From: a virus
Strand: one strand, 5' to 3'
Length of the DNA stretch: 50,529 bases
Virus record (IMG/VR): IMGVR_UViG_3300033146_000636
Span: 1-50,529 of that record
The notes under the pieces are model-generated. The model saw only the letters and a program-made list of their open reading frames with translations. It ran no database searches and was not told the origin of the DNA. The translations under genes were made by a program, and so were the position numbers. This document shows positions 2,857 to 19,820 of the stretch, one piece after another; the first letter of the stretch is position 1; each line of letters starts with the position of its first letter.

Positions 2857-3157
2857 ATTAAGTTATTTAGACCTCTGAACCCCAGTTTCCCCATTTTGTG
2901 GTAAATTTTGAATTTTCTTATGTCATTATTAAACCGCAAGATTGTGTTTATAATTTCAGATCCTCTCTCTAGATTTAGACGTTCATCAGTTATAAAGTGA
3001 TCCACACTCCCATCTCTGAATATCTTATATACTTCAAACTTATATGAATTAGATAGTCTTTCGACGGCTATGCACCATCGTTAAATATATCAACTTTTTC
3101 ACCACTATCTATATCGTTGGAAGATGTCTGATAAGATTCTAATATTGTAAATTTCAT
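2853..3157 (-). pseudogene. tagged internal-protein candidate, frameshifted
   Basis: Reading the minus strand from ATG 3157 gives MKFTILESYQ and 19 more residues, then TAG at 3070-3068. The adjacent frame then stays open to TAA at 2855-2853 with protein-like sequence (KFEVYKIFRDGSVDHFITDE and onward, about 75 residues). Joining the two gives a protein of about 100 residues that resembles the tagged gene at 3923 (both have an F-x-V/I-x-(I/K)-(F/Y)-x-DG-(S/E) segment). Either one base was lost near 3075 (a true lesion or a sequencing error) or expression needs a shift; no slippery motif is visible. The N terminus is the (I/L)-x-E tag of this phage. Confidence 0.55.
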
Positions 3158-3258
3158 AAACAGCCCGAATATTTAACTTTCTTTAATTTTTCTTTTTGTT
3201 CATCCATATACTTCCAAAAAATTGTATAAATTTCTTGTAGTTCTTTTTTATCTAACAT
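3154..3258 (-). CDS. 34-aa helical protein
   Basis: Begins at ATG 3258 behind a strong AGGAGAGAAT site on the minus strand; product MLDKKELQEIYTIFWKYMDE plus a Lys-rich end. Its TGA overlaps the ATG of the tagged gene (ATGA at 3157-3154), so it is the first cistron of a two-gene minus-strand operon. A TATTAT about 10 bases upstream of the RBS could be its -10. Function unknown. Confidence 0.5.
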   Translation of the reverse strand: MLDKKELQEIYTIFWKYMDEQKEKLKKVKYSGCL

Positions 3259-3282
3259 ATTCTCTCCTGATAATACTTATTA

Positions 3283-3306
3283 TTTGTAACTAAAGTGTGT
3301 TATAAT
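3283..3306 (+). promoter_or_regulatory. early-type promoter, leaderless start at 3313
   Basis: TAACTAAAGTGTGT followed by TATAAT at 3301-3306. The first box is degenerate (AACT instead of CACT). Six bases separate the -10 from ATG 3313. Confidence 0.7.
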
Positions 3307-3312
3307 ATAGTT

Positions 3313-3537
3313 ATGAAAAAAGTTTGGTATTTGTTAGATGTTGGCAATGAACGCATAACGGGTTTAATAGATGGTCACGGAGTTGGATTTGGGAGTAATA
3401 TTGATAGTGGAAAAGGTTACGGGGTTGGTGAAGGTGTGGGTAGTGGATTTAAGAGTGGGTCTGGATTGGGTCATGGATACTTTAAGCGTTATGATGACAA
3501 TTTTGAAGAGTGGGTTGAAAAGGAGGAATTAAAATGA
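3313..3537 (+). CDS. Gly-rich small protein on a leaderless mRNA
   Basis: 74 aa. The correct start is ATG 3313; a longer frame from 3295 begins inside the promoter and is not used. The middle (about residues 20-56) is rich in Gly with alternating Gly-x dipeptides (GHGVGFGSNIDSGKGYGVGE), and the end is acidic (DDNFEEWVEKEE). It may form an extended structure. No family recognised. Confidence 0.55.
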   Translation: MKKVWYLLDVGNERITGLIDGHGVGFGSNIDSGKGYGVGEGVGSGFKSGSGLGHGYFKRYDDNFEEWVEKEELK

Positions 3538-3555
3538 AATGTAGGGAGGTTTATT

Positions 3556-3789
3556 ATGTTTGATGATGAAATGGATAAATTTATAGTGAAGACATATTAT
3601 ACAATAGTTTCATTTATTGTATTTATGGCTATAGTTAATTTTTTAATTTGTGGTAGGTTAATATTAATTCCTCTATCAATATTTTTTTTAATAGCACCAT
3701 TTATTTATATAATTTTATATAAATTAGTTGGTACAATATATGATAAGTTGGTGGGGTTTGCCAAAATAGGAGGTAATGATGAATTGTGA
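3556..3789 (+). CDS. two-TM small membrane protein, paralogue of 295-507
   Basis: 77 aa behind GGGAGG. Two hydrophobic helices at about residues 14-34 and 38-57, then YKLVGTIYDKLVGFAKIGG. Topology and tail match the gene at 295. The stop overlaps the start of the zinc-ribbon gene, whose RBS lies in its last codons. Function unknown. Confidence 0.6.
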   Translation: MFDDEMDKFIVKTYYTIVSFIVFMAIVNFLICGRLILIPLSIFFLIAPFIYIILYKLVGTIYDKLVGFAKIGGNDEL

Positions 3790-3919
3790 GAGCTGTGGGA
3801 AAGAAGTTGAAATATTAATATGTTCTAGGTTTTCAGATGCTATGATATGTAATCCTTGTAATATAAAAGAGATAGAGCATCCAGATTTCGAAAAATTGGT
3901 TAAAGATAATAATAAGTAG
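3779..3919 (+). CDS. small zinc-finger protein (C-x2-C ... C-x2-C)
   Basis: 46 aa, start ATG 3779 (or 3776) behind AGGAGGT. CESC at residues 3-6 and CNPC at residues 23-26, then IKEIEHPDFEKL. The spacing suits one treble-clef or ribbon-type zinc site. Short phage proteins with an N-terminal CxxCG and a distal CxxC followed by E-x-x-HP are common, but their job is usually unknown. Lies between a membrane-protein gene and a tagged gene on one transcript. Confidence 0.65.
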   Translation: MNCESCGKEVEILICSRFSDAMICNPCNIKEIEHPDFEKLVKDNNK

Positions 3920-3922
3920 TTT

Positions 3923-4309
3923 ATGGAATTTAAAATATTAGAAAGTGAGAACGAGACATTCTGGAATAGTTTCAAAATGAATAGAGACGGAAATTTTCAG
4001 AGTGATATAAATGTTGAAAATATAACGATAAGTTTCATTGAAGACTGGTTTAGCCCGGTCCATCTGAAGAACTCTGAATTTGTTATTAATATATATAAAG
4101 ATGGTGAGTTAGTCGATATATTCCACGGTATGTTTAAGGATGAGATTGAGACTATATTTTTAGCCAATTTAGCTGGTCTTGGTATATATAATGAAGAACC
4201 TGAAGAATGGTTAGGGATGAGTAAAAAAGAAAAGTTGAGAAGTAAGTTAAGTGGTACTGAATACGAAGTTAATTATGATAGGGGTGGGTTTTACTACGAA
4301 GAAGTTTAG
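3923..4309 (+). CDS. tagged protein, candidate internal head protein
   Basis: 128 aa starting MEFKILES. The first seven residues match the tag shared by about twelve genes here; the predicted prohead-protease cut would be after Glu7 (I-L-E/S). The rest is acidic and beta-rich (FVINIYKDGELVDIFHG in the middle) and resembles the frameshifted gene on the minus strand at 2853-3157. No Shine-Dalgarno precedes ATG 3923; instead TAATAAGTA lies four bases after-spaced upstream (3910-3918), a one-base variant of the candidate late promoter. Function after delivery unknown. Confidence 0.65.
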   Translation: MEFKILESENETFWNSFKMNRDGNFQSDINVENITISFIEDWFSPVHLKNSEFVINIYKDGELVDIFHGMFKDEIETIFLANLAGLGIYNEEPEEWLGMSKKEKLRSKLSGTEYEVNYDRGGFYYEEV

Positions 4310-4325
4310 AACGAAGGGGAGTGTT

Positions 4326-4508
4326 ATGAATAAAGGATATTTTGGAAAAGATTTAGATGTTGGTGATGTTATATACGAGTCTAGTTTTTATGGGAAATTT
4401 GGTGAGATTAAATCAATCAATCAAGAAATAGCATCTTTCATTGATGAGAATAATTTTATCAGAACTGCACATTGTGTAATACTTGTATTAAGGTTGGGAA
4501 AGAGTTGA
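4326..4508 (+). CDS. KYKLG-family protein with possible -1 frameshift
   Basis: 60 aa in frame 0 from ATG 4326 behind AAGGGGAGTG; an upstream in-frame start overlapping the previous gene is rejected. Frame 0 stops at 4506-4508 just before the family's C-terminal motif. In the -1 frame the sequence continues ELKLKHKLSSYN and on to TGA at 4607-4609, which restores the LKxKL tail of the paralogues at 523, 1108 and 5552. The junction is G-GGA-AAG (4496-4502). The fused product would be 94 aa, close to the 93-aa paralogue. Either programmed frameshifting or a one-base lesion explains this. Confidence 0.6.
   Translation: MNKGYFGKDLDVGDVIYESSFYGKFGEIKSINQEIASFIDENNFIRTAHCVILVLRLGKS
4496..4502 (+). 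promoter_or_regulatory. slippery heptamer GGGAAAG (candidate -1 frameshift site)
   Basis: The heptamer lies in the X-XXY-YYZ phase relative to the zero frame (G GGA AAG) and one codon before the stop. GGGAAAG is the same heptamer used by the phage lambda G-T tail genes. No clear stimulatory pseudoknot was identified by eye. Confidence 0.45.
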
Positions 4509-4580
4509 AATTAAAGCATAAACTTAGTAGTTATAATCTACTCAGAAGAATGATTGATGTGAAGAAAAGGGGGTTATTAA

Positions 4581-4778
4581 ATGAGTTATTCCAATCAATT
4601 GCAGAATGATAGAAAATTTATGTTGATTCATAAACTGACTGGATTAACTCCAGATTGCCATACCTGTGACAAAATGTCAGAGAATACTAACTGTTGGATA
4701 TATTCTAATGGTATAATATATAGCAACAATATTTTATATTCAATTTGTGACAATTTCCGTCCTAAAAAGAGTACATAA
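4581..4778 (+). CDS. four-cysteine CD-(N/D)-(F/W) family protein
   Basis: 65 aa behind AGGGGGTTATTAA. Cysteines: CHTC at residues 26-29, then C38, then ICDNF at residues 56-60. The pattern C-x2-C, C, about 18 residues, C-D-N-F recurs in small genes at 6315, 7934 and 8640, with looser forms at 5320 and 19863. Four cysteines suggest one structural zinc. Function unknown. Confidence 0.6.
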   Translation: MSYSNQLQNDRKFMLIHKLTGLTPDCHTCDKMSENTNCWIYSNGIIYSNNILYSICDNFRPKKST

Positions 4779-4817
4779 TGATTGGCATTAATGTTGTATG
4801 ATACTATTGGAGGTAAT

Positions 4818-5276
4818 ATGAAAAAGATATTATTAATAGTTTTAATGTTGATGTTATCCATGAGCATCTATTCACAGTACAAGAGGTACACACCAACGGG
4901 TTATGATCACAACGGGTTCGAATTCTTCAGATTCTATGATGGTCCAATAAGTTATTGGTTTGATAATTGGAATAATTATTATGTTTACATTAATAAGAAT
5001 GTGTATATAATGTCAGAAGTCGTTTGGTTGGGTTATAGTGAGTTGAATTGGGTTCGAATGATTAACATACCTATTTGGAGTATCAAACCTTATTGTAGAG
5101 AAAAGAGGTTTAAGAAGCGTTATATTTTCAAGAAGTCAGGAATTTACAAACATAACCGAAAGAATCGCAAAAAATATAGAATTTACAAACATAACCGTAA
5201 GATTTATAAGAAGCGTTATAAGTTTAGAAGTAGAAGTTTTGACAGTAGATTCAAAAAGTTCAAGAAAAAATCTTAA
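4818..5276 (+). CDS. secreted or periplasmic protein with very basic C-terminal repeats
   Basis: 152 aa from ATG 4818 behind TTGGAGGTAAT. Residues 1-20 form a signal peptide (KK, a run of Leu/Ile/Met, then Ser-rich SMSIYSQ). The middle is aromatic (PISYWFDNWNNYYVY). The last 60 residues are extremely basic, with the repeat YKHNRK-x-(R/I)-x-KKxR-(Y)-(I/R). Two element copies (4895-4902, 4911-4922) encode TG and NGFE near the mature N terminus. It probably acts in the envelope, perhaps binding lipopolysaccharide, peptidoglycan or nucleic acid there. No homologue recognised. Confidence 0.6.
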   Translation: MKKILLIVLMLMLSMSIYSQYKRYTPTGYDHNGFEFFRFYDGPISYWFDNWNNYYVYINKNVYIMSEVVWLGYSELNWVRMINIPIWSIKPYCREKRFKKRYIFKKSGIYKHNRKNRKKYRIYKHNRKIYKKRYKFRSRSFDSRFKKFKKKS

Positions 5277-5288
5277 TTTTTTAACCCG

Positions 5289-5313
5289 TTTGGACACTGA
5301 AGTGTGTTATAAT
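5289..5313 (+). promoter_or_regulatory. early-type promoter, leaderless start at 5320
   Basis: GACACT, nine bases GAAGTGTGT, TATAAT at 5308-5313. Six bases lie between TATAAT and ATG 5320. An AACCCGTTT half-copy of the dispersed element (5283-5291) sits just upstream. Confidence 0.75.
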
Positions 5314-5319
5314 GTAGGT

Positions 5320-5856: not shown

Positions 5857-6318
5857 ATGGTTAAATTTAAGATTATTGAAAGTATCACAGATGCAACAGG
5901 TGGACACCGTGGTAATGTTTCCAAGAGTGGTTATGGTATAAATAAACATGATGATGTTAATAATAGAGTAATCGATAATTCACAAGTTGAGACTAAGATT
6001 GATAGTGATTTAGAAATGGATCTTCTAAAGGCAATGGCTGCTGAGAAAGAGAAGGGTACGTACAAAACTGAGGTTGTAGAGGTTAACAAGTTCAAGAATA
6101 ATTTCATGGTTGGTAAAAAAGTAGGTTATTTCAATTTAAACATACCAATTGCTGTTATACTCAATAAGAGGATTGGTGGTGAAAAGTTTAAAAATTTACC
6201 TGATGTATATTTATCCACTAGTTTATATGATGCAATTAAAGATGGTAAAATTGATAAGGTAGAATATAAAATTTTCAATTATGAAATGTTTATAAAATCT
6301 AAATTAAAGCGAAATTAA
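5857..6318 (+). CDS. tagged protein, candidate internal head protein
   Basis: 153 aa starting MVKFKIIES; predicted processing after I-I-E. Residues 10-45 are polar and likely disordered (ATGGHRGNVSKSGYGINKH), followed by a charged helix (DLEMDLLKAMAAEKEKGTYK) and a C-terminal domain with mixed structure. RBS TTAGGAGATCAA; a candidate late promoter lies 17 bases upstream. The size, basic/acidic mix and lack of enzyme motifs fit an injected internal protein. Confidence 0.65.
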   Translation: MVKFKIIESITDATGGHRGNVSKSGYGINKHDDVNNRVIDNSQVETKIDSDLEMDLLKAMAAEKEKGTYKTEVVEVNKFKNNFMVGKKVGYFNLNIPIAVILNKRIGGEKFKNLPDVYLSTSLYDAIKDGKIDKVEYKIFNYEMFIKSKLKRN

Positions 6319-6605: not shown

Positions 6606-7937
6606 ATGAGATTTAGAATAATAGAGGCTCAATTAAATGAAAAGTTAAGTCTAGATTTAGCTAGACGTATTACCAGAGATTATGGTTGGGATAGAAATCT
6701 TTATGATGATATGTTTGGTAAAGGGATATGGAGAGTTAATATACCTTTAGGTGAAGTTAATCCTTGGAATGATATTGAAGATGCACTTGAAAGAGGTGGT
6801 TATTCAGTTAAAGATGGTAAAGCAATAAAGGGTGAACAAGAGACTAAAATAGGTAAAGCACTTGGTAAATTAAAAATTGACAAGGGTACTATAAGTACAT
6901 TACAAAAAAAATATGCAACTCTTTCAGATGAAAGTAGTAAATCTGGGAAAGAACAATCTGAATATAATGTAATTATTTCTAGACACCCATATGATATAAT
7001 AGGGATGTCCGCAGATAGGTCATGGACATCAGATAGTTGTATGAGGGTTGATGGAAAAACCGGTGAATGTTTAACTAATCAAGCACAATCTGCATATAAA
7101 CATGTTAAAATTAATTCTTTGATTGCTTATGTTGTTAAGAGTACAGATACTAATATAAATAATCCTATAGGGCGATATCTGATAACTCCATATGAAAATA
7201 ATGATGGTGTATATTTAAAACGTAATAGCAGTGTATATGGGAAAACAGTTGAAGGTTTTGAAGACGCAATAGATGATTGGTTAAATGAGAACCAGAAAGA
7301 ATTATCAGGAATTTTTAATTTTCCAGATGTATATAATGATGGTGACGCCGAAAGTATTTCTCGTGTGGGTGAAGAATATAGATTAAAAACTATAAATGAG
7401 TTAAAAGAATATGGTGTTATTAAATGTGATATCAAAGACGAAGGTTATGGTAATTGGTTTATAGAAGATCTATTGAATGGTTACATCAAAGTAACAGATG
7501 CTATTATAGATATAACCACTGAATATTCTATAATTTTTAAATCTGGGACTTGGGAAAAGGGAATCTGGGAATACGGGGAATGGATAGATGGAACTTGGAA
7601 AGATGGAACTTGGGTAGATGGAACTTGGAAAGGTGGAACTTGGATAGATGGAGTTTGGGAAGATGGAATTTGGAGAGGTGGAGTTTGGAAAGGTGGAACT
7701 TGGGAAGATGGAGTTTGGAAAGGTGGAACTTGGAAAGATGGAACTTGGAAAGATGGAGTTTGGGAAGATGGAGTTTGGGAAGGTGGAATTTGGAGAGGTG
7801 GAATTTGGGAAGGTGGAGTTTGGGAAAAAGGTGAAATTGAATATGCCCGAGATTATTCAAATATGGAAGGGAAGACGGCTACAAGTTATGAAGATCCCAA
7901 TACATTCAAACTAAAAATCGAACAAAAAATTGTTTAA
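6606..7937 (+). CDS. tagged protein with C-terminal Trp-pentapeptide repeats
   Basis: 443 aa, starting MRFRIIEA (processing predicted after I-I-E, before Ala). Residues 10-310 form a polar domain containing the segment SRHPYDIIGMSADRSWTSDS, a pattern found in uncharacterised phage proteins. Residues about 314-408 hold some 19 tandem pentamers of the type G-(T/V/I)-W-(K/E/R/I/V)-(D/G), predicted to build a long regular beta structure with stacked tryptophans. A short tail follows. RBS AAGGTGATAAG; a late-promoter candidate is 19 bases upstream. Tag and promoter suggest a virion protein, perhaps injected. Function unknown. Confidence 0.75.
   Translation: MRFRIIEAQLNEKLSLDLARRITRDYGWDRNLYDDMFGKGIWRVNIPLGEVNPWNDIEDALERGGYSVKDGKAIKGEQETKIGKALGKLKIDKGTISTLQKKYATLSDESSKSGKEQSEYNVIISRHPYDIIGMSADRSWTSDSCMRVDGKTGECLTNQAQSAYKHVKINSLIAYVVKSTDTNINNPIGRYLITPYENNDGVYLKRNSSVYGKTVEGFEDAIDDWLNENQKELSGIFNFPDVYNDGDAESISRVGEEYRLKTINELKEYGVIKCDIKDEGYGNWFIEDLLNGYIKVTDAIIDITTEYSIIFKSGTWEKGIWEYGEWIDGTWKDGTWVDGTWKGGTWIDGVWEDGIWRGGVWKGGTWEDGVWKGGTWKDGTWKDGVWEDGVWEGGIWRGGIWEGGVWEKGEIEYARDYSNMEGKTATSYEDPNTFKLKIEQKIV
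7545..7831 (+). repeat. 15-bp tandem repeats encoding Trp pentamers
   Basis: About 19 units of the 15-mer pattern GGA-(A/G)(C/T)T-TGG-(A/G)AA-(A/G)(A/G)T encode the pentamers. The repeat leaves several other reading frames open on both strands; those are by-products. Unit number is likely to vary by slippage. Confidence 0.9.
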
Positions 7938-8951: not shown

Positions 8952-9281
8952 ATGGATAAGACTATAGAAGATAGAATTGATGAAAAAGTTAAATTAATAA
9001 GAGAATTAGATTCACAACTTGTAATGACCCAGGATTTATATCAAAGTATGACTAGTAATTATAAGGATCTATATGAGACTAATAAGGCCAACGTTAACTC
9101 ACAACATATAAATGGTTTCGCTAGTTTATTAAAAGCTATGAATGATTTATTCAAACAGAAGGGTCTATTGCAGAATGAGATCAATGATTTAATAGATTCC
9201 GATGGTATAGTAATAAACGAAAATGAAGATGAGTTAACTGGTAGTAAAGAAGATATATTAAAATTGATTAAAAATGGTTAA
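8952..9281 (+). CDS. coiled-coil protein, possibly small terminase (gp16-like)
   Basis: 109 aa, almost entirely helical and charged (IDEKVKLIRELDSQLVMTQD; LLKAMNDLFKQKGLLQNEIN), with an acidic stretch before the end. In T4-like phages a small coiled-coil terminase subunit (gp16) precedes gp17; here a large PAS gene and a membrane-protein gene intervene before terminase. The size is somewhat below gp16. The gp16 call is inference from position and coil content only. Overlaps the next gene by 8 nt. Confidence 0.45.
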   Translation: MDKTIEDRIDEKVKLIRELDSQLVMTQDLYQSMTSNYKDLYETNKANVNSQHINGFASLLKAMNDLFKQKGLLQNEINDLIDSDGIVINENEDELTGSKEDILKLIKNG

Positions 9282-11322
9282 GTTTTTATTTAATAAAGAA
9301 AAGAAGATAAAACATAGGGATGATTTTCTATATGACAAAAAACCTGTGAGGTGGTATGATACTCTACTCTCATACAGATTATTGGTACTTCTGACATTTA
9401 TGGTATTTTTCATATCAACACAATTGATATTATTTGGTGCAACTGTATCAATAGTTATGAAAATACTCATGGTTATTATATTAGGTTTAGTATCTTCAGT
9501 GTTATTGATATTGTCTAGTTTTATAATAATAAATGGTCACTATAAGATATTTACAAAAGATGTAAAAATTAAAAATAGAGAATTAATTAGTAACAAGGAA
9601 ACAATACACAATCTTGAGATATCTGAAAATAAAAATCGTAAACAATTTGAGACAATATTCAACAAGTCCCCTGATATGTATTATATAATAAATCTAGAAT
9701 CAGGTGTTATAATAGATGTTAATCAGCAAGCCATAAATCAATTAGGGTATAATAAGAAGGAAGACATTGTTGGTTCAGACGCTAAAAAGATATTTGTACA
9801 CCCAGATAGTTATAGTAAATTTGAAGATCAATGGAATGATATCAAAAAACAAAAAAGATTGATACACAAATTAAAATTCCAAAAGGTTACTAAATCTGGA
9901 GATAAAATAGATGTCATAGAGAGTGCAATAGTTTTAAAGAATGGTATAGAAAAGGTATTGCTAATATGTAGAGATATAACAAAAGACTTGAGACTAAGAA
10001 GTGAATTGAGAGAAAGTAAAAATGCCATGAACACTATCATCGAGCAAGATAATAGATCAATAATAATATTAAATGATGATAATAAGAAAGTAGATTTTGT
10101 GAACACATCAACACTGAAATACTTTGGTTATAACATAGATGAATTTCTAAAACTAAACCTCAATGATATATTCATCATAAATGATGTTAGATTCAAATCA
10201 ATATTCGACATCATAGATACAGGATTAAATAATGGTAGGATCTATAAAGAGATTATAGGTGTTAAGAATAGTGGTGACGAAATCAATATAGCCCTATTAG
10301 TTATAAAACTAATAATCGAACAAGGTGAACACGCACTCATGATAATGGATGATATAACGGAGAAAATAAAAACAAGTAAGAAGTTAACCGAGGCTAAACA
10401 CAATATTAAATCATTAATAGATTATTCACCTAATGGTATATTAATACTAGAAAATATGAAAATAAAGGAAGTCAATCCAATATTCCAAAAAATGTTTGGA
10501 GTTAATAACTTAGATATAATAAACAAAGATGTTGAGCACATGATTGATGAATATAAGATTTTCGAAGATACAGAGATAATATGTAACCATAAAAATGATG
10601 AATCAATAACAAGTATGTTATATTCATTAAACCGCGGGGAGTATAAACAAAAAAACCTGAAATTGAGACATATTGATAGATCTGGTACTAAGAAATGGTT
10701 AAGTGTAACTGGTTATAATACTTATATAAGTGGGAATATATATAATACAATGATAATAATCACAGATATAACAGAATTAATGGATATGAGTCTAAAACTG
10801 AAAATGAACACTTATAATTTAGAACATTTCTTCGATATAACAACAGATGCAATATATGAAACAGATAAAGATTTTAATATATTAAATGTTAATGGTAATT
10901 TTAAAAAATTGGTTGGGGATACTGAATCAGATTATGTAGGTAGATATATATATGATTTCGTTTCAGATAAGAGTAGAAACGAATTAATTGGTAAAAACAT
11001 ACAAAGGATAAGAGATGTTAATAAAAATGTAGTTGAGAAAAAAATAATAATTACGGATGCAACAGGTAAAGAACATCTGATAAACGTTTCATCTGTATTC
11101 AAATTCGACGAAAAAGATAATTTTACCGGGTCGTTTGGTATAATAAAGGATATATCTATTACAATAGATGAATATAAACAAGAAGTAAATAAACTGGATA
11201 AACTCACAGAAGGACTGAATGACATCTTAGAGGATAGTGCAATATCAAACCATTTGAAGGATATAAATAAACTTATGAGTAGAAACCTAAATTTAGAAGA
11301 GACTATTATTGAGGAATTATAA
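9274..11322 (+). CDS. membrane-anchored multi-PAS sensor without output domain
   Basis: 682 aa. Two TM helices (about residues 34-56 and 62-87) with no sizeable periplasmic loop, a short coil, then four PAS domains: about 122-240 (FNKSPDMYYIINLESGVIID), 250-365, 375-500 (YSPNGILILENMKIKEVNPI) and 515-630 (TTDAIYETDKDFNILNVNGN). Each ends in a D-I-(T/S) linker typical of PAS chains. The last 50 residues are helical. No histidine-kinase, GGDEF, EAL or methyl-accepting domain follows. It should sit in the inner membrane with PAS domains in the cytoplasm, and might bind and interfere with host sensor proteins. Followed after 1 nt by a membrane coiled-coil gene, a possible partner. Confidence 0.8.
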   Translation: MVKFLFNKEKKIKHRDDFLYDKKPVRWYDTLLSYRLLVLLTFMVFFISTQLILFGATVSIVMKILMVIILGLVSSVLLILSSFIIINGHYKIFTKDVKIKNRELISNKETIHNLEISENKNRKQFETIFNKSPDMYYIINLESGVIIDVNQQAINQLGYNKKEDIVGSDAKKIFVHPDSYSKFEDQWNDIKKQKRLIHKLKFQKVTKSGDKIDVIESAIVLKNGIEKVLLICRDITKDLRLRSELRESKNAMNTIIEQDNRSIIILNDDNKKVDFVNTSTLKYFGYNIDEFLKLNLNDIFIINDVRFKSIFDIIDTGLNNGRIYKEIIGVKNSGDEINIALLVIKLIIEQGEHALMIMDDITEKIKTSKKLTEAKHNIKSLIDYSPNGILILENMKIKEVNPIFQKMFGVNNLDIINKDVEHMIDEYKIFEDTEIICNHKNDESITSMLYSLNRGEYKQKNLKLRHIDRSGTKKWLSVTGYNTYISGNIYNTMIIITDITELMDMSLKLKMNTYNLEHFFDITTDAIYETDKDFNILNVNGNFKKLVGDTESDYVGRYIYDFVSDKSRNELIGKNIQRIRDVNKNVVEKKIIITDATGKEHLINVSSVFKFDEKDNFTGSFGIIKDISITIDEYKQEVNKLDKLTEGLNDILEDSAISNHLKDINKLMSRNLNLEETIIEEL

Positions 11323-11942: not shown

Positions 11943-11962
11943 AACCCGTTCGAACCCGTTGG
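11943..11962 (+). repeat. dispersed element: tandem AACCCGTT copies
   Basis: AACCCGTTCGAACCCGTT followed by GGGG, in the gap before the terminase gene. The GGGG probably doubles as the ribosome binding site for ATG 11971. Confidence 0.75.
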
Positions 11963-11970
11963 GGATAAAA

Positions 11971-13809
11971 ATGAATAAGAAATTTGATACAAGAAGGAAT
12001 ATATTCACCAAGAAACAAGGTGAAATAATGAAAAAGTGTTCAGAGGACATATTAGAATTTGTTAAATATGTTCATATATTCCACCCAAAAAAAGGTTGGA
12101 TTTTAGCAGGTGATAATTTATATGATAAACAAAAAGAAGTATTAAAAGAACTGTCATTAAATTGGGATTCTAAGTATCACGTTGTACTATCAGCTAGACA
12201 GTCAGGAAAGTCAACATTAATACTACTATTATCACTATGGATAATAACTTTTTCATCTGGTAGAGTAATAGCTATACTAGCACATAAACAAAAAGCTGCT
12301 CAAGGTTTATTTAAAAGATTCAGTATAATGTATCATAAATTAGAACCATTCTTTAGATTATCCCAAGAGATTGGAGATAGTAAAGTAGAACTACAATTAG
12401 CAGATGGTACCACAGTATTTTGTGGAACAACAACCCCAACGGGTTTAAGGTCAGAATCGCTTTCACTTTTGATAACCGATGAGTTCGCATTTGTTCCTGA
12501 GACAGTTGCTGAAGAATTTTACTATGCTAATATGCCTACTTTAGAACAGATGAATGGTGGTTACATAGCTATATCAACACCTAATGGTAAAGGTAATATA
12601 TTCTATGATTTGTATAAAAAAGCAAAAAATTGGAAAGATAAGAAGTGGGGCTTATTAGAAATTGGTTGGCGGGATGTATTTGATAGAGATATCAAATGGA
12701 AGAATGAGAAGATAAAAGAACTGTCTATACAAGGTAAAAGTGGACAAGAGGCATTCGATAGAGAATATGGAAATAGTTTCGACGTTCTTGATGATGGAGT
12801 AAAGTTTTTCGATCAAAGAGTTTTAGCTGAAATGAAACAATCCAATTTGATGGATGTGTACACATATAACGATTTTACAATAGATATATTCAATGATTTA
12901 ATAACATCAAACCCATATGTTGTTGGTGTAGATCTAGCAGAGGGGAAAGGTAACAATTTCTCAGTCTTAGCAGGATTTGAAATTAACTCACAACGAAATG
13001 AATATGGTGAGATATACAATTTAAATCATGCATTTCATTTTTTGGAATCAGGTATAAAGATTGACGAGTTCTTTAATTTAACATTTAAATTTTTGATTGG
13101 TGAATTAAATGATAAATGGTTTATGGTATTCGAGACTAATGATATAGGTAGAAACTGGGATATGAGGTTTAGATATTTATTAGATGAATTAGTGGCAGGA
13201 ACATTATCAAATAAGAATAGAGTATTTATAGACTTATTAACTGATAAGTTTGAAGGTGACACCACTCTGATGGTTGATTACCTATCACAACGTGTATTCA
13301 GAAGAGTTGATAAAAGTGGAGACTATGAATATGGTATGAAAGCTGATGTTAAAACTGTCCCGTTATTAAAATCTACTATGAAGAGGATGGTTGATGATGA
13401 AGAAATTATATTCAAAGATGGTAGATTAATACTGGAAGCCAGACAGTATGAAGATAAGGGTGGGAGAATAAAACCAGTCAAATTCGATACTAAGGTAGGT
13501 AATAGTAATTACGATAATCTAGCGGCAGTTAGAACGAGTTTATTACCATTTACAGAATTGAGTTTATTACAAACTGTTATGGGGTTACAACCATTGACAA
13601 GAGAATCAACTATAAAGAATAAAGCTAGCCAGATGTTAGATGTTATAGCCCGCGTCAGACAAACGACGAGAAGTACAGACCGGATGGAGGCTATGATGAT
13701 GATAGACGAATTTGAAAAACAATTTGGTATACCAGGAACTGTTCCGTTATCCATCTCAATCCCTGATAGTACCAGTGGTTGGAAGAACAGGCGTGGATAC
13801 TTTAAATAA
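11971..13809 (+). CDS. terL: terminase large subunit (gp17-like)
   Basis: 612 aa, near the T4 gp17 length. The N-terminal packaging ATPase has Walker A SARQSGKST (about residues 74-82) and Walker B LLITDEF (about 166-172, catalytic Glu). The C-terminal RNase H-like nuclease starts around residue 317 with VVGVDLAEGKGNN (first metal-binding Asp), and its distal acidic residue lies in NYDNLAAVRTS. The protein pumps and cuts DNA at the prohead portal. ATG 11971 is chosen over an upstream TTG in the palindromic element. Followed by a truncated paralogue. Confidence 0.95.
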   Translation: MNKKFDTRRNIFTKKQGEIMKKCSEDILEFVKYVHIFHPKKGWILAGDNLYDKQKEVLKELSLNWDSKYHVVLSARQSGKSTLILLLSLWIITFSSGRVIAILAHKQKAAQGLFKRFSIMYHKLEPFFRLSQEIGDSKVELQLADGTTVFCGTTTPTGLRSESLSLLITDEFAFVPETVAEEFYYANMPTLEQMNGGYIAISTPNGKGNIFYDLYKKAKNWKDKKWGLLEIGWRDVFDRDIKWKNEKIKELSIQGKSGQEAFDREYGNSFDVLDDGVKFFDQRVLAEMKQSNLMDVYTYNDFTIDIFNDLITSNPYVVGVDLAEGKGNNFSVLAGFEINSQRNEYGEIYNLNHAFHFLESGIKIDEFFNLTFKFLIGELNDKWFMVFETNDIGRNWDMRFRYLLDELVAGTLSNKNRVFIDLLTDKFEGDTTLMVDYLSQRVFRRVDKSGDYEYGMKADVKTVPLLKSTMKRMVDDEEIIFKDGRLILEARQYEDKGGRIKPVKFDTKVGNSNYDNLAAVRTSLLPFTELSLLQTVMGLQPLTRESTIKNKASQMLDVIARVRQTTRSTDRMEAMMMIDEFEKQFGIPGTVPLSISIPDSTSGWKNRRGYFK

Positions 13810-13827: not shown

Positions 13828-14436
13828 ATGAAAGAATTAAAATTTATGAATCAAGCTCGGGGAATAATACAAACAACTGATAATTTATATCCAAAACAAA
13901 GAGAAATTATTGAAGAATTAATTAAAAATTATAACAAATTCAAATACATTATAACAGGAAGTAGACAAACTGGGAAAAGTTTAATGATGTTATTGTTGTC
14001 CATCAATTTAAAAGATGTGAAAATAACAATAATGTCAGTTAATAAAAGAAATAGTAAAAACTTACAAGATAATTATATGCGAATTATACAAAGATCTGAA
14101 GATGTTGTTGATACCAAAAATGTAAAATTCATATCTTTTAATAATGAAATCCCAGATGATACGGAATTGTTAATATTAGATGAAATGGGATTCTACACCA
14201 ATGATGGATTTGAATACGAAAAATACTTAAATGAATATGATGGTAGGTTTATTGCAATATCTACGAGTGGGACTAATTCATTATTCAATCAATTCGTTGA
14301 AGATTCTAAACATTCAGATAAATGGAAATTATTAACTATAAATTGGGATGAAGTTTTTGGACATGACCAAGAATGGAAAAATGAACAAATTAGACATCTA
14401 GGTGAAGAAACATTTAAAAAATATTATGAATTATGA
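13828..14436 (+). CDS. terminase-like ATPase domain without nuclease
   Basis: 202 aa behind AAGGAGAATAC. It aligns by eye with the first half of the adjacent terminase: YPKQREIIEEL near residue 20, Walker A TGSRQTGKS (43-51), Walker B LLILDEMGF (114-122), IAISTSGTN, and NWDEVFGHDQEWKNEQIR matching WRDVFDRDIKWKNEKIK. The protein stops exactly where the terminase nuclease domain would begin; an HNH gene overlaps its end in the +1 frame. The motor residues look intact, so it may be functional. Likely a duplicated terminase whose nuclease half was lost or replaced by HNH; decay after homing-endonuclease insertion is the alternative. Confidence 0.8.
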   Translation: MKELKFMNQARGIIQTTDNLYPKQREIIEELIKNYNKFKYIITGSRQTGKSLMMLLLSINLKDVKITIMSVNKRNSKNLQDNYMRIIQRSEDVVDTKNVKFISFNNEIPDDTELLILDEMGFYTNDGFEYEKYLNEYDGRFIAISTSGTNSLFNQFVEDSKHSDKWKLLTINWDEVFGHDQEWKNEQIRHLGEETFKKYYEL

Positions 14437-14680
14437 TGACAAAAGATTAGTACTCATAGAAAGAAAGGGTGGTAAATGTCAAATATGCGGATATAATAAA
14501 TGTAAATCAGCTTTAGATTTTCACCACATTGACCCGAATACTAAGAAATTTAACATCTCTGGGAGTTCATTGAATAACCCACCAGTCGTTATTTTAAATG
14601 AGTTAGAAAAGACGGTATTGTTGTGTAAGAATTGTCATGCTGAAACACACCAACGTTTAAGTATTGAAAATAATAAATAA
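14426..14680 (+). CDS. HNH endonuclease
   Basis: 84 aa from ATG 14426 (an in-frame GTG at 14402 would add eight residues and overlap more). Zinc knuckles CQIC (about 19-22) and CKNC (about 68-71) frame the HNH core DFHHIDP and the final CHAETH. Small HNH proteins are homing endonucleases or packaging nucleases that work next to terminases in many phages. Here it overlaps the end of a nuclease-less terminase-like ATPase in another frame, which suggests either homing into the duplicate or a split ATPase/HNH module. Confidence 0.85.
   Translation: MNYDDKRLVLIERKGGKCQICGYNKCKSALDFHHIDPNTKKFNISGSSLNNPPVVILNELEKTVLLCKNCHAETHQRLSIENNK
14671..14679 (+). promoter_or_regulatory. candidate late promoter TAATAAATA
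   Basis: TAATAAATA overlaps the end of the HNH gene and lies 21 bases before the neck-protein ATG, with ATGAGGATTAG between. Confidence 0.4.
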
Positions 14681-14700: not shown

Positions 14701-15330
14701 ATGCCAGAAAAGTTGAATACAGAGTTACCCTTAGAATTCGATTATTTCGGAATTGGTGAGTCTTGGGATACAGAGACAGTTAGAGGTTTTTTAAACGAAT
14801 TCAACCAAATCGGGGGAATTCGTTGTAATTATTATCACTTACAAGACGCTGGATTACATATGGACCCTGTATTCTTGGAGAAATCGAAGAAAAGATTTGA
14901 ATATCCAATATCTATAAAATTTGTACTTTCTTATATAGAAGAGATTATAGAAAACATGAATGCAGGTATAACATTATTGGATACTATAGATATGACTATC
15001 GAAATGTCATATTTCAAAGATGTTACTAAATTTAAGAAACCAATAATAGGAAGTCTAATACAAATACCATACGCTGGGTTATTTTTTGAAGTTGAGAATG
15101 TTGTAGACTCTGACGCTATTTTTTTCGGGCATAAAATGACATGGAAATTAACTTGTAAAGTTTATCAAGAATCATTTGAAGATGATGACATTACCAATGA
15201 AGTATATACACCAGATACAGCTCCAGGTGAAGATAATAACTTTATGGACAATCTAACCGATGAAATAGAAGAAAAATCAGAAGAGGGTTATACATATAAG
15301 AAAGGTGATAACCCGTTTGGCGATTATTAA
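14701..15330 (+). CDS. neck protein (gp14-like)
   Basis: 209 aa. The diagnostic stretch is IGSLIQIPYAGLFFEVENVV followed by FFGHKMTWKLTCKVYQESFE, which matches the T4 gp14 pattern (G-x-L-(I)-x-x-P..LFE(V/I)..V...F..LG....W.L.C.(V/L)(Y/F)). gp14 joins the filled head to the tail. Shorter than T4 gp14 (256 aa); the acidic C terminus (DEIEEKSEEG) is not expected to be structured. gp13 is not found next to it, so neck genes are rearranged. Ends in a half-copy of the dispersed element (DNPFGDY). Confidence 0.65.
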   Translation: MPEKLNTELPLEFDYFGIGESWDTETVRGFLNEFNQIGGIRCNYYHLQDAGLHMDPVFLEKSKKRFEYPISIKFVLSYIEEIIENMNAGITLLDTIDMTIEMSYFKDVTKFKKPIIGSLIQIPYAGLFFEVENVVDSDAIFFGHKMTWKLTCKVYQESFEDDDITNEVYTPDTAPGEDNNFMDNLTDEIEEKSEEGYTYKKGDNPFGDY

Positions 15331-15347: not shown

Positions 15348-15668
15348 ATGAAGTTTAAAATTTTAGAAAGTGTTGACAATTTTGAAGAGATCAAACGACT
15401 CTTGGATCAGGCTGCAAAAGAGTTAGCTGTATCAAATATCAAGAATGACCAAGATTATATGCCAGAGATCACACAAATCCTTAGTGATATATTCGAAGAT
15501 GATGATTCTGGATATTCCACATGGGAGTTATCAGATAGATTAGACGAAGTTGCTGATTATTTCAACAAAAGTTATGATATGATATATTCAGAATTAACTA
15601 ATTCTAATTATGACCCAGAAGGTGATAAGGCAGATGATAAAATTATGATGAAAAAAGAGGAATTTTAA
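15348..15668 (+). CDS. tagged protein, candidate internal head protein
   Basis: 106 aa starting MKFKILES, the consensus form of the tag. The body is acidic and helical (DNFEEIKRLLDQAAKELAV; ILSDIFEDDDSGYSTWELSD). RBS TTAGGAGTAAG. Its TAA overlaps the ATG of the next tagged gene (TAATG), so two internal-protein candidates are translated together. No enzyme motif seen. Confidence 0.65.
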   Translation: MKFKILESVDNFEEIKRLLDQAAKELAVSNIKNDQDYMPEITQILSDIFEDDDSGYSTWELSDRLDEVADYFNKSYDMIYSELTNSNYDPEGDKADDKIMMKKEEF

Positions 15669-15919
15669 TGAAATTTAAAATAGTTGAAACAGAACAAGTT
15701 TATTTCTCAGATTTAGATAGAGAATTCAACGAAGATGTTGATAGATTACAACATGATGATATGCCACACGGTGAACAAGAGATAGACGAATTCATTAAGA
15801 AATATAAATCATTAACAAAATGGTTCCCTAAGAAACCACTAGACCCTAAAGAGTTAAATGGTTGGATGAGGGAAGTGATAAGAAACATACATAACATAAT
15901 AGACGATAACATAAATTAA
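15668..15919 (+). CDS. tagged protein, candidate internal head protein
   Basis: 83 aa starting MKFKIVET; cleavage predicted after I-V-E. The body is helical and acidic (FSDLDREFNEDVDRLQHDD). RBS AAAGAGGAATTT in the previous gene. The stop codon (15917-15919) shares bases with the flagellin promoter, so the flagellin unit was inserted or fused exactly at its end. Confidence 0.65.
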   Translation: MKFKIVETEQVYFSDLDREFNEDVDRLQHDDMPHGEQEIDEFIKKYKSLTKWFPKKPLDPKELNGWMREVIRNIHNIIDDNIN

Positions 15920-15993: not shown

Positions 15994-16824
15994 ATGAGTT
16001 TTTCAGTTTTAAACAACATTTCTGGGATGAATGCCCAGAGAAATCTTTATTCAACAGAGTTAGGCTTAAACAAGACAATCTCTAGATTGTCTAGTGGTTT
16101 ACGTATCGTTGATGCTGGTGATGACGCATCTGGATTAGCAATCGCAAACAGCCTCAATGCAGATTATCACGCATTAACACAAGCAGTAAGAAATGCAACT
16201 GATGGTAAATCAATACTAAATGTTGCAGATGGTGCACTATCCAAAATCAGTGACCTACTCACTAGAGCGGTTACATTAGCTGAACAAAGTGCGTCGGAAA
16301 CTGTTGGGTCTGAAGAAAGAGTAACAATCAACGAGGAGTATCAAAGTCTATTATCTGAGATAGATAGAGTTGTATCTGTTACTAACTTCAAAGGGTCAAG
16401 ATTGTTCGATGAATCAGGGACTGTATCAAAGAGTATTTTTGTTGGTGATACCAATTTTGCATCAACAATTAACATTTCAATAGGTGGAGCTTCAGGAAGC
16501 AACTCAACATCTCTGGGATTAACAACGGACTTAACAACAGCGTCTAATGCACAGGATGTATTAGGTGAACTCAACAGTGCTATTGGTTCAGTATCGAGTT
16601 GGAGAGGTAGTTTAGGAGCACAATCAAACAGGCTGACAAATGCAGTATCTGTTATCAAGGTTCAAGCTCAGAACATTCTTGCTGCAAAGTCAAACATCCT
16701 AGATGCAGACATCGCACAGGAGATAAGCAACATGAACAAATTTCAAATTCTAATGCAGTCAGGTATGAGCTCTTTGGCTCAGGCTAACGCATCCTCACAG
16801 TTAGTAATGTCGTTATTCAAATAA
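15994..16824 (+). CDS. fliC: flagellin
   Basis: 276 aa, complete and intact. Residues 1-140 are the D0/D1 domain (LNNISGMNAQRNLYSTELGL; RLSSGLRIVDAGDDASGLAI; LLTRAVTLAEQSAS at 88-101, the segment matching the TLR5-binding helix; NFKGSRLFDE at 131-140). A short variable centre (about 141-195) is followed by the C-terminal D1/D0 (about 196-276: RLTNAVSVIKVQAQNILAAK; DADIAQEISNMNKFQILMQS; ends VMSLFK). Codon use is richer in C and G than its neighbours, which points to recent transfer from a host. It should be exported by the host flagellar type III system and polymerise. Own sigma-28 promoter; strong CGGAGGATATT site. Confidence 0.97.
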   Translation: MSFSVLNNISGMNAQRNLYSTELGLNKTISRLSSGLRIVDAGDDASGLAIANSLNADYHALTQAVRNATDGKSILNVADGALSKISDLLTRAVTLAEQSASETVGSEERVTINEEYQSLLSEIDRVVSVTNFKGSRLFDESGTVSKSIFVGDTNFASTINISIGGASGSNSTSLGLTTDLTTASNAQDVLGELNSAIGSVSSWRGSLGAQSNRLTNAVSVIKVQAQNILAAKSNILDADIAQEISNMNKFQILMQSGMSSLAQANASSQLVMSLFK

Positions 16825-16835: not shown

Positions 16836-16915
16836 TCCCAACGGGTTCGAACTTTAAAATGGGTTCGAACTTTAAAACGGGTTCGAACTTTAAAATGGTT
16901 TCGAACCCGTTGGGA
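16836..16915 (+). repeat. 18-bp tandem array inside an inverted repeat
   Basis: GGGTTCGAACTTTAAAA(T/C) is repeated three times (16843-16860, 16861-16878, 16879-16896). The array is bounded by TCCCAACGGGTTCGAA (16836-16851) and its exact reverse complement (16900-16915). It is built from the dispersed element plus a TTTAAAA spacer and lies 12 bases after the flagellin stop; as RNA it can fold in several registers and may end the flagellin transcript. Confidence 0.85.
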
Positions 16916-16975: not shown

Positions 16976-17182
16976 TTGAAGTTTATAATATTATCAGAGG
17001 CTAAACGGGTTCGAATGGGTTGGAAGGCCCGAATCAGAGTCGATGGTACTAGTATACCGGTTGATATTTTCCATGATGTAAAAGACTACAATAGTTTCGA
17101 TAAGTTAATAAAGTCTACATATGGTCAATCTTTTAAAGGTTATGTATCTTATCCGAAACCAAATTACGGGAGCAAAGCATGA
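16976..17182 (+). CDS. tagged protein (TTG start), candidate internal head protein
   Basis: 68 aa read from TTG 16976 five bases after TTAGGAG; the ATG at 16972 is out of frame and gives only ten codons. N terminus MKFIILSEA: the tag is one residue longer, and L-S-E/A still fits the prohead-protease rule. Residues 10-15 (KRVRMGW) are written by a copy of the dispersed element (17004-17021). The body is small and basic with a beta-rich part (ARIRVDGTSIPVDIFHD). Its end overlaps the next gene (ATGA). Confidence 0.6.
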   Translation: MKFIILSEAKRVRMGWKARIRVDGTSIPVDIFHDVKDYNSFDKLIKSTYGQSFKGYVSYPKPNYGSKA

Positions 17183-17523
17183 GATTTAAAATTTTAGAAG
17201 GAAGACCTGGAGATATTAGAGACTATTTGAAGCCAAAAGTTAAATTGGGTAGACCTAAAAATTTCAACATAAAAGGTGATAAGAATAAGAAAAAACCTGT
17301 AAATGGTAATACTGAACACAAAGATGTTGATGACATTGCAATGATAGAATTAAAGAAAGAGCAAGAAAAGTGGGACAAAATAAATAAAGATAGACAAAAT
17401 GCTTCATTAAAGTATATGGAAAAACCGGTAAAGAGATTCGACTTTGAGGATAGTAACAACAAGAGAATACATAAAGGTTTAAATAAACCAGCTAAGTTTG
17501 GTAATCCAAGGAATAGAGGATAA
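17179..17523 (+). CDS. tagged basic protein, candidate internal head protein
   Basis: 114 aa starting MRFKILEG (cut predicted after I-L-E, before Gly). Very Lys/Arg-rich and low in hydrophobics (KPKVKLGRPKNFNIKGDKNK), probably disordered, with the basic charge expected of a DNA-binding internal protein such as T4 IPs. Start overlaps the previous stop (ATGA). Confidence 0.65.
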   Translation: MRFKILEGRPGDIRDYLKPKVKLGRPKNFNIKGDKNKKKPVNGNTEHKDVDDIAMIELKKEQEKWDKINKDRQNASLKYMEKPVKRFDFEDSNNKRIHKGLNKPAKFGNPRNRG

Positions 17524-17524
17524 T

Positions 17525-17791
17525 ATGAATTTTAAAATTTTAGAAAACATTGGTAGTTGGGATGATAACCCAGATAATTGGGCTGAGCAGAGACAAGAAG
17601 AGTTGATGCCTATGTTAGATGAAGATTTAACAATCGGAGAGTTCTGTAGGTTTAAAGGTATAGATACTGAATATCTATTATCTTATATAAGAGATTATAA
17701 TAAAAACCCAGATGTGAATAGTGATACTTTGTACCCAACAGATGAATTAGAAAAATTACTAAACATGGCACAATTGTCGGCAGGAGAATAA
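17525..17791 (+). CDS. tagged protein, candidate internal head protein
   Basis: 88 aa from ATG 17525 behind AGAGGATAAT; a longer in-frame start at 17498 would bury the tag and is rejected. Begins MNFKILEN. The body is acidic and helical (WAEQRQEELMPMLDEDLTIG). Followed one base later by another tagged gene. Confidence 0.65.
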   Translation: MNFKILENIGSWDDNPDNWAEQRQEELMPMLDEDLTIGEFCRFKGIDTEYLLSYIRDYNKNPDVNSDTLYPTDELEKLLNMAQLSAGE

Positions 17792-17792
17792 G

Positions 17793-18095
17793 ATGTTATT
17801 TAGAATATTTGAAAATGTGAATGATGGTGTATACCATGAATCATATTCATCAGCAGTTCAATATGCAAGAACACAAGCAGAGAGTAGAGGATACGAAATA
17901 ACAGATGATGAATGGTTTAATGTAGTTAATACAGGACCAGCTAAACCTTCACCAGGTGAACACAATAGTCTACACCTAGAATTACACAAAGATGGTAAGT
18001 TGAAGAAGGAAAATCTACATATAATAGTAACCAACATAGACAATAATGCAAGAACTATTAAAACACCATATGAATTAGTATTTTATATAAGTTAG
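17793..18095 (+). CDS. tagged conserved phage protein
   Basis: 100 aa starting MLFRIFEN. After the tag comes a recognisable phage pattern: AVQYARTQAESRGYEITDDE, then TGPAKPSPGEHNSLHLEL, KDGKLKKENLHIIVTN and a final YELVFYIS. Proteins with this G-x-x-KPxxG...H..L.K.GK..K..LH..V.N order are found in many large myoviruses without assigned function. Here it carries the tag, which suggests a head location. RBS CAGGAGAATAAG. Confidence 0.65.
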   Translation: MLFRIFENVNDGVYHESYSSAVQYARTQAESRGYEITDDEWFNVVNTGPAKPSPGEHNSLHLELHKDGKLKKENLHIIVTNIDNNARTIKTPYELVFYIS

Positions 18096-18104
18096 GAGAA
18101 TGAA

Positions 18105-18554
18105 ATGATATTAAAACAAGGAAATAACATAGTAAACATATATGAAGTTGATAGTATATCATTGACACCAAGTACAGCAATACAATTTAACTTAGCGTCC
18201 GGAAATATAACATTTAACTATTCTACACCCTTAGAATATGATACAGATCTTGAAAAAGTGGAGAGTGTTCTCGGTGGGAGATCACCACAAAAAATGGTTA
18301 ATAGAGTATCTAAGTGGAAAGCCAATGCTAATCATCTAATAGGTGATTGGGTATACCCCACAGTTGCAAATGGTTATAGGTATAAATGTACTACAGCTGG
18401 AACATCAGGTGGGGTCGAACCCGTTTGGAATGAAACCCCAGGTATTTGGGACCCAACTAGTGGTGGTTCATGGACAACACCAGCAGGAACAACAGCTGAC
18501 GGTACTGTAGTATTTGACACTTGGGGAGAATATAAATCAGGTTATACAGTATAA
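18105..18554 (+). CDS. virion protein with carbohydrate-binding-like module
   Basis: 149 aa behind TTAGGAGAATGAA. The C-terminal half (about residues 68-145) is the module W-x-(A)-x..G-D-x-V-x-P....NGY.YKCTTAGTSGGVEPVW...DGTVVFDTWGE, frequent in phage tail fibres and head-decoration proteins and similar to chitin/carbohydrate-binding domains. The N terminus (MILKQGNNIVNIYEVDSISL) is beta-rich. A half-copy of the dispersed element (18415-18426) encodes VEPVW. It has no tag; probably exposed on the virion surface. Confidence 0.65.
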   Translation: MILKQGNNIVNIYEVDSISLTPSTAIQFNLASGNITFNYSTPLEYDTDLEKVESVLGGRSPQKMVNRVSKWKANANHLIGDWVYPTVANGYRYKCTTAGTSGGVEPVWNETPGIWDPTSGGSWTTPAGTTADGTVVFDTWGEYKSGYTV

Positions 18555-19513
18555 TGAAGTTTAAAGTTTTAATATTAGAGGAGTTAACAGAAGATGACTT
18601 AACAAATCTATATACTCTGAATTACAAATATGATATAATGAGATCTTCCAAACCTAAAAGGTTTGATTCAGAAGATGCTTTCAGAAAAAAACAAATTAAA
18701 ACTAATGAATTGGGTAGAGCATATCTAGACCCATTAGAAAATGATATAATTGATGAACTACTGTTAGTATTCAATTCCTGGTTAGAATCACACGCGATCA
18801 CAGAACCTAAAAAATGGGCAGCGGCCAGAGTTAAGTTCCTCGAAGGGTTTGAACCCGTTGAGATTCTTGAATCAATAACATCTGAATACATCAATTATAG
18901 TGTATATAATAAAAAGAATTTCGATGAGTTAAGTCTTTCAGAATTATATAATGAACAACTTGGAGATGTTAGTGGTAGTGAATTAAATACATTTATAAAT
19001 GAGCACCTGAAAGATGATGAAATAAATAGAATTATGAATGATATTGAATATTATAAGGGGCAAGATGTAGATTACTCTGAAGATATTAAGCAATTAGAGG
19101 AGGATTTAGAACATATAGAAAATAATGAGTTTGATGATATATATGTTGATGTGCACACTATATTATATGCACAAGATATGGGTTATGATGTATTCGAGGA
19201 AATGTATGAACATTTAGTATTCCCACTGTGGTTTGAACATTGGGGACCAAGAGGTATAGAAGACACCAGAAACAGAATCGAAAGGGTTGCGAATCAATTA
19301 ACACATGCTAGAGGGTTAAAATTCACAGAAAAGAATATAAGAGAGAAGAACATAATAATCAATTCAGCACTAGGTGCAGTTCACCAGACTGGTGGAATGA
19401 TGGATTATATTGAGAGTGAAAATCCAGAGATAACTAATGAATTGTTATCAAGGTTATCAGACATGGATGTCGAACATTTGAATAAAGAATTGGAAAAAGA
19501 TGGCTATATCTAG
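18554..19513 (+). CDS. large tagged protein, candidate internal head protein
   Basis: 319 aa starting MKFKVLILEELTEDDL, a variant tag with the E at residue 9 (I-L-E/E). The remainder is acidic and alpha-helical, with a long coiled segment (about residues 150-205, YYKGQDVDYSEDIKQLEEDL) and a C-terminal globular part (EMYEHLVFPLWFEHWGPRGI). The dispersed element (18845-18859) reads as GFEPVEILE. Overlaps the previous stop by 1 nt (TAATGA). No enzyme motif recognised. Confidence 0.6.
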   Translation: MKFKVLILEELTEDDLTNLYTLNYKYDIMRSSKPKRFDSEDAFRKKQIKTNELGRAYLDPLENDIIDELLLVFNSWLESHAITEPKKWAAARVKFLEGFEPVEILESITSEYINYSVYNKKNFDELSLSELYNEQLGDVSGSELNTFINEHLKDDEINRIMNDIEYYKGQDVDYSEDIKQLEEDLEHIENNEFDDIYVDVHTILYAQDMGYDVFEEMYEHLVFPLWFEHWGPRGIEDTRNRIERVANQLTHARGLKFTEKNIREKNIIINSALGAVHQTGGMMDYIESENPEITNELLSRLSDMDVEHLNKELEKDGYI

Positions 19514-19820
19514 ATTTAGAATAATCGAAGATTTAGATAATCTTACAATTACACAATCACATTTAAATAGCCATAATGACCAACATGATTACAGAATAGA
19601 TGCTTATCACAATAATATACATGTTGGATATGCAGACATTGTACTATACGATGGTGAGTTAACTATTTCATATATCGAAGTAGATGAAAAATCTAGACGA
19701 TTAGGAATAGGTTCTAACATTATAAATTATATTAAAAATAATCCTGAATTCGAGGGTTATGAATACGTACAAAGTTGGAAGACTGAATTAGGTTCTAAAT
19801 TTAGACCAATACATAACTAA
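19500..19820 (+). CDS. tagged GNAT-type acetyltransferase
   Basis: 106 aa. The core has the GNAT motif A: ISYIEVDEKSRRLGIGSNII (R-R-x-G-x-G, acetyl-CoA pyrophosphate loop, about residues 60-79) followed by a helix INYIKNN. The N terminus MAISRFRIIED carries the tag shifted by three residues (I-I-E/D). If packaged and injected it could modify host proteins, as T4 Alt does by ADP-ribosylation; target unknown. Overlaps the previous gene by 14 nt. Somewhat short for a GNAT (usual 140-180), so strand/helix elements at the C-terminal end may be missing. Confidence 0.7.
   Translation: MAISRFRIIEDLDNLTITQSHLNSHNDQHDYRIDAYHNNIHVGYADIVLYDGELTISYIEVDEKSRRLGIGSNIINYIKNNPEFEGYEYVQSWKTELGSKFRPIHN

Follow-up and report, generated by a model that had tools for sequence, protein, structure and literature searches.

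In phage T4, the unrelated internal proteins (IPs) IPI-IPIII and Alt carry a short N-terminal peptide, the capsid-targeting sequence (CTS), which ends in a Glu of the gp21 type (PMC9026906, PMC3012670). Ten residues at the N-terminus of IPIII are enough for packaging, with 4 and 7 acting in targeting and 8 and 10 in processing; an Asp at position 10 blocks processing and leaves targeting intact (PMC9026906). The stretch cut off by the protease gp21 ranges from 7 residues in Alt to 65 in gp23, and foreign proteins can be delivered as CTS fusions (PMC9026906). The loading of diverse proteins by T4-like phages by way of a CTS is already published (PMC9026906, PMC3012670). The same arrangement is found in the window analysed here, the 50,529 bases that make up the complete IMG/VR record IMGVR_UViG_3300033146_000636, which is, judged by its genes, a fragment of a divergent T4-like myovirus: 11 intact open reading frames (ORFs) within 16 kb begin with the seven letters MKFKILE or variants of them. 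We read this tag, with a probability of about 0.82, as the short capsid-targeting sequence and gp21 (S77) site of packaged, probably injected effectors in the window and its relatives (together, the clade). The principle would be the known one of T4, applied with a new tag to a far larger cargo; in the open-access literature, no account of this tag, its cargo set, or a comparison across phages was found.

The likeness to T4 includes clade orthologues of gp21 and gp23, and an ADP-ribosyltransferase (ART)-type domain among the relatives' cargo. The differences are that the tag is usually 7 residues long, while the T4 CTS has 10; that there are 11 cargo genes in the window and at least 14 in the relative G027, against three IPs and Alt; and that packaging of the cargo has been demonstrated in T4, whereas the clade is known here from genes alone. 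In the phiKZ-like giant phage SPN3US, a protease of the gp21 type, though diverged, removes the propeptides of inner-body and ejection proteins by cutting behind a Glu, and two paralogues have an identical N-terminus (PMC5694885). These propeptides are mostly longer than 100 residues and end in AxE or SxE (PMC5694885); the clade tag has neither property of this phiKZ/SPN3US type, with 7-10 residues, (I/L)xE, and unrelated bodies behind it. Phage polyvalent proteins include an ART-PolyVal-type domain predicted to be injected, as in the clade cargo, but are single large multidomain proteins (PMC5512222), where the clade has separate small ones with a common address tag.

The tagged ORFs of the window are as follows (named below by their start; the arrow marks the predicted cut):

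3923..4309, plus strand: 128 residues, MEFKILE↓S; no domain match, ribosome site unclear
5857..6318, plus strand: 153 residues, MVKFKIIE↓S; no domain match
6606..7937, plus strand: 443 residues, MRFRIIE↓A; body homologues in jumbo phages
15348..15668, plus strand: 106 residues, MKFKILE↓S
15668..15919, plus strand: 83 residues, MKFKIVE↓T; weak phrog_3576 match (E = 0.002) from residue 20
16976..17182, plus strand: 68 residues, TTG start, MKFIILSE↓A
17179..17523, plus strand: 114 residues, basic, MRFKILE↓G
17525..17791, plus strand: 88 residues, MNFKILE↓N
17793..18095, plus strand: 100 residues, MLFRIFE↓N
18554..19513, plus strand: 319 residues, lengthened variant MKFKVLILE↓E
19500..19820, plus strand: 106 residues, MAISRFRIIE↓D; GNAT
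3068..3157, minus strand: 29-codon ORF, MKFTILE↓S; no obvious ribosome site

The first-pass annotation had counted about twelve tagged genes of 83-443 residues. Eleven stand as intact ORFs, their actual range being 68-443 residues; the minus-strand ORF at 3157 does not, since with its 29 codons, no obvious ribosome site, and an open stretch that continues in another frame to 2853 it is probably a broken tagged gene or a chance match. A Shine-Dalgarno-like site is present at most tagged starts (none is clear at 3923). The bodies are indeed otherwise unrelated, with no mutual phmmer similarity at E < 1e-3, and they do include the proposed GNAT enzyme (19500; PF00583 from residue 24, 23.0 bits against a cut-off of 20.7) and Trp-repeat protein (6606, with C-terminal W-x-x-G repeats of 15-nt period). 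The tag end follows the gp21 rule, (I/L)-x-E, strictly in 9 of the 11, the other two being lengthened variants, one of which, that of 16976, recurs in G027 (MKFIILSE↓S, gene 58527). The remark that several of these genes follow late-promoter candidates was not reproduced: the exact T4 box TATAAATA, which may not be the clade's own promoter, is absent just upstream of all tagged starts. For internal proteins of the T4 type such a promoter is not strictly required.

Within a six-frame, stop-to-stop translation of the window, F[KR][IV][LIVF]E occurs 11 times, 9 of them just after a start codon. The form M-x(1,5)-F-x-[ILV]-x-E is found in 8 genes, compared with a mean of 0.19 and a maximum of 3 when residues 2-40 of each window gene were permuted in 5000 rounds. 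Counted by position, [ILV]xE peaks with its Glu at residue 7 in both large relatives (22 genes in G027, against about 5 at other positions; 15 in G026, against about 4). Third positions of the tag codons vary synonymously (TTT/TTC, ATA/ATT/ATC, TTA/CTA/CTT, GAA/GAG) while the amino acids are kept, so that selection acts on the peptide. Two residues before the Glu (P3), the clade has I in 34 cases, L in 12, V in 5, and F in 1, among tags that had been selected by their motif.

The window terminase and sheath, each scanned as a single sequence against viral contigs, gave no matches, and a broad terminase alignment recovered distant T4-likes only, which became controls. The first relative, L063, came from a scan of viral contigs for DNA encoding MKFKILE; it is a contig of 9.25 kb with a related terminase and nine tagged ORFs. 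Terminase alignments led to L076, L164, G026 (168,828 bp), and G027 (222,974 bp), and the head-closure protein to L171. All of these carry the tag (9 of 15 ORFs in L063, 5 of 37 in L164, 3 of 6 in L076, 2 of 7 in L171, 16 of 347 in G027, and 11 of 263 in G026, by automatic counts that include a few chance hits). Among the controls, none of 133 ORFs is tagged in stretches of phiM12, OC, and S-CRM01, and 1 of 804 in 80 other T4-like terminase loci. Many tagged genes lie beside the terminase and the head-closure (Hc2) gene in the window, L063, L164, L076, and G027.

Because the window does not reach the head module, gp21 and gp23 were taken from the relatives. A gp21-type protease, which the first-pass annotation had expected in the full genome, is present in both G026 and G027 (PF03420, E = 2e-26; phrog_207, E = 2e-42), as is gp23 (E = 1e-82); G027 also has a portal (E = 9e-73). 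The expectation of a like cut site in the capsid protein was borne out too: LRE↓S of G027 gp23 aligns exactly with the known T4 site, LTE65↓A66, G026 gp23 has the same N-terminus as G027, and the same alignment column holds LQE↓A in phiM12 and LAE↓A in S-CRM01. The clade gp21 itself begins MSKQVLME↓T, comparable to LIE-9 in T4.

Tagged cargo of the relatives includes a T4-type RNA ligase 1 (PF09511, E = 2e-24), an ART-PolyVal domain (E = 9e-7; its 30.1 bits fall slightly short of the cut-off, 31.2), proteins with DUF5661, DUF5662, and DUF6876, a zeta-toxin/kinase P-loop protein, and HEFIH-motif proteins, which from that motif may be metallopeptidases; G027 137594, although without a database match, may be a GNAT. 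Where a domain is recognised, it starts behind the tag. Body families that recur among clade genomes (HEFIH, DUF5661, DUF6876, RNA ligase, ART-PolyVal, and others) have stayed tagged even over deep divergence, with a single exception (G026 80247 vs. G027 137247). Homologues of the DUF6876 cargo and of window 15668 were not found in the phage collection, and family searches turned up no homology between cargo bodies and T4 internal proteins. AlphaFold models of the L063 member of the YRG family (mean predicted local distance difference test, pLDDT, 42) and of 17793 (65) are too weak for a fold search, and the YRG family is therefore not called an ADP-ribosyltransferase here.

What argues most strongly for a capsid tag is that the tag on homologous bodies differs from phage to phage, while (L/I)xE is kept in most of these tags. 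Members of the P-loop kinase family start MKFKIAE↓S in L063, MIPFILKE↓G in HTVC008M, and MKTFAELQE↓G in Melnitz-3; in Atu_ph07 the kinase is an internal domain with VTE↓G ahead of it. Among the marine T4-like kinases (MKTFxELQE↓G type), E↓G is kept in 51 of 51 distinct N-termini and L or I at P3 in 49 of 51, while the other tag positions drift. The YRG family has MKFKILE in L063 and M[KR]WxxLxE (MRWEQLTE) in Atu_ph07, and the N-terminal part of 6606 belongs to a jumbo-phage family with tagged homologues in Atu_ph07, HRDY3, Lu11, and Dickeya and Erwinia jumbo phages. The Atu_ph07 run comprises ten adjacent genes with MKW or MRW starts at 41.8-49.5 kb (coding sequences, CDS, 53-62, by counting the annotated CDS). 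It has the architecture of the clade's tags and homologous cargo (the YRG, kinase, and 6606 families), and differs in a W at residue 3 and in the fusion of paralogues in several of its cargo genes. Both gp21 and gp23 are encoded by Atu_ph07, whose capsid protein reads LME↓N close to the cut position, and the run falls within CDS 31-76, of which 29 products were found by virion mass spectrometry (PMC6102473). With the tag on other bodies in the relatives and phage-specific tags on homologous bodies elsewhere, packaging is well supported by comparison, in keeping with the first-pass reading of an internal-protein set.

By this reading, late in infection, the first residues of the tag, with an aromatic at residue 3, would draw each protein into the prohead core, where the head protease would cut after the tag Glu (residue 7-10) while trimming the capsid protein at LRE↓S. 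The freed enzyme would stay among the packaged DNA and, if the analogy with T4 extends to injection and cargo function, would probably be injected with it and act on the next host.

The tag might instead direct proteins elsewhere (a replication compartment, a membrane, the scaffold, or tail assembly), or it might be an uncut capsid tag. In T4, targeting can be separated from cleavage, as the Asp substitution at CTS position 10 demonstrates (PMC9026906), and no tag is found on the window's tail, sheath, or baseplate proteins, so that the tag marks a class. We nevertheless consider this unlikely: Glu with I or L two residues before it is what gp21 requires, the capsid protein has a site of the same kind, and the kinase family holds on to precisely these positions. 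A DNA or RNA element common to the tagged start codons (a translation enhancer, an operator, or a recombination hotspot) with no peptide signal would explain why nucleotide similarity extends into the ribosome site in some copies (families D3 and D9), but is very improbable, given that sequences upstream of tagged starts otherwise differ and that other phages' tags differ in DNA yet follow the peptide rule; a DNA-level element was rejected on the codon variation. Hardly more credible is the idea that the tags are N-terminal beta strands that arose by chance or convergence. Alpha/beta proteins commonly have small MKFKIxx starts, and some of the listed G026 and G027 genes do look like chance (e.g., an HNH-like protein starting MKFILLE), but the permutation and control counts, the sharp Glu peak at residue 7, and the start of recognised domains after the tag speak against this.

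Several points do weigh against the capsid-targeting reading itself. The protease and capsid protein come from relatives with about 41% terminase identity, the window fragment lacking both, and the clade's tagged proteins are known as genes, from which we infer their presence in virions. Two of the window's tags (16976 and 18554) are lengthened, and the clade accepts a broad choice of residues after the cut (P1': S, N, D, E, K, and others), wider than T4 predicts. A low-confidence, single-sequence model of 17793 places the tag in a beta strand (residues 2-7), so that in some proteins it could belong to the fold, as the chance-strand explanation would also have it. Finally, the count of 29 virion proteins in Atu_ph07 is for CDS 31-76 as a whole, of which CDS 53-62 form a part.

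Beyond the clade, we lean slightly towards a general code, in which short, phage-specific address tags would be swappable across large phages and their last residues would follow the head-maturation protease. The carriers of this putative code would be the GNAT, ADP-ribosyltransferase-like, 6606-family, and P-loop kinase classes, the same cargo under different tags: MKF[KR][IL]xE in the clade, M[KR]WxxLxE in Atu_ph07, MKTFxELQE in marine T4-likes, and MKIQLAVA, MEMMLALA, or MEIxVSLS in Lu11, HRDY3, and Erwinia/Dickeya phages. Eight records with 6606 homologues were read, and in each the body is preceded by a short stretch of 7-10 residues. Where gp23 and an S77 protease are detected, the stretch ends in Glu (Atu_ph07, MQYTDLIE↓A; LR756504, MKAIVKLHE↓I; LR756502, MRITDFKKFE↓A, with K at P3), though LR756504 and LR756502 are unannotated, with start codons chosen by us, and match S77 only weakly (E = 4e-6 and 2e-5). 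In Lu11, HRDY3, Alexandra, Yoloswag, and JA13, where neither gp23 nor an S77 protease was detected, it ends in (A/S)x(A/S) instead (MRIQLAVA↓A, MELQLALA↓A, MELMVSLS↓A, MEIVVSLS↓A, MKTVVSIS↓A). The suggested link between ending and protease, and with it the code, draws on few independent groups.

Pseudomonas phage Lu11 has an analogous tag set at 156980-169839 (L298), without detected gp21 or gp23. Of its genes 0200-0213, 9 of 14 start M[KR]I[QM]LA[LVTI]A, and besides 6606 homologues and HGT-motif proteins the set includes a protein related to one that is annotated as GNAT in HRDY3; in another Lu11 region, even a loose form of the tag is found in just 3 of 66 genes. An AVA↓A-type capsid site was sought at 8-57 kb of Lu11, which holds no annotated capsid protein. 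In PaBG, a relative of Lu11, an HK97-type capsid protein is processed (PMC7412058).

The untagged landmarks of the window are:

11959..13809, plus strand: T4-type large terminase (gp17), the anchor for finding the clade; 26% identity to cyanophages
14701..15330, plus strand: head-closure (Hc2) protein, adjoining tagged clusters in relatives, as the terminase does
15994..16824, plus strand: flagellin-like gene, inside the tagged late-gene cluster
from 22813 onward: sheath stabiliser, sheath, tube, and baseplate genes

The flagellin is short but complete, with both Pfam ends matched (E = 2e-34 and 1e-20); it gave weak matches only in the phage collection, and a genome scan for its closest bacterial source found none. 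Directly after the terminase, at 13828-14680, lie a truncated second terminase-like ATPase (202 residues) and then an HNH endonuclease-like ORF. A multi-PAS protein (9274-11322) closely precedes the terminase; L164 has a receiver-plus-PAS-like ORF (4193-5083) near its tagged cluster, and Atu_ph07 a 'multi-sensor' protein (36599-38209) adjoining its tagged run. The gp5-like baseplate protein (34328-36709) has an M23 peptidase domain where T4 has lysozyme.

Two repeats were also noted. With at most one mismatch allowed, the window contains 19 matches to the 12-mer AACGGGTTCGAA, which is one half of the palindrome AACGGGTTCGAACCCGTT, against 0.08 expected, both intergenic and intragenic (845, 1722-1757, 2469, 4911, 11949, 16840-16911, 17004, 18414, 18848, 35948-35969, 42148, 44287, and 46407); the exact 12-mer was not found in the relatives. 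A promoter-like repeat, AGTGTGNTATAATATA, stands in exact or near-exact copies ahead of small ORFs at 14, 2132, 3294, and 5301, its total count being just modestly above chance.

Proteins that enter the cell with the DNA, before phage gene expression, have been established for a few model phages only. They are first responders against host defences: T4 IPI blocks GmrSD, and infection of strain ECOR17 requires IPIII (PMC9391042). A tag that can be read from sequence turns anonymous late genes into predicted injected effectors, which in this clade would comprise an acetyltransferase, an ART, an RNA ligase, a zeta-type kinase, and many new families. If the wider code is real, the packaged effectors of uncultured phages would become readable from sequence alone.

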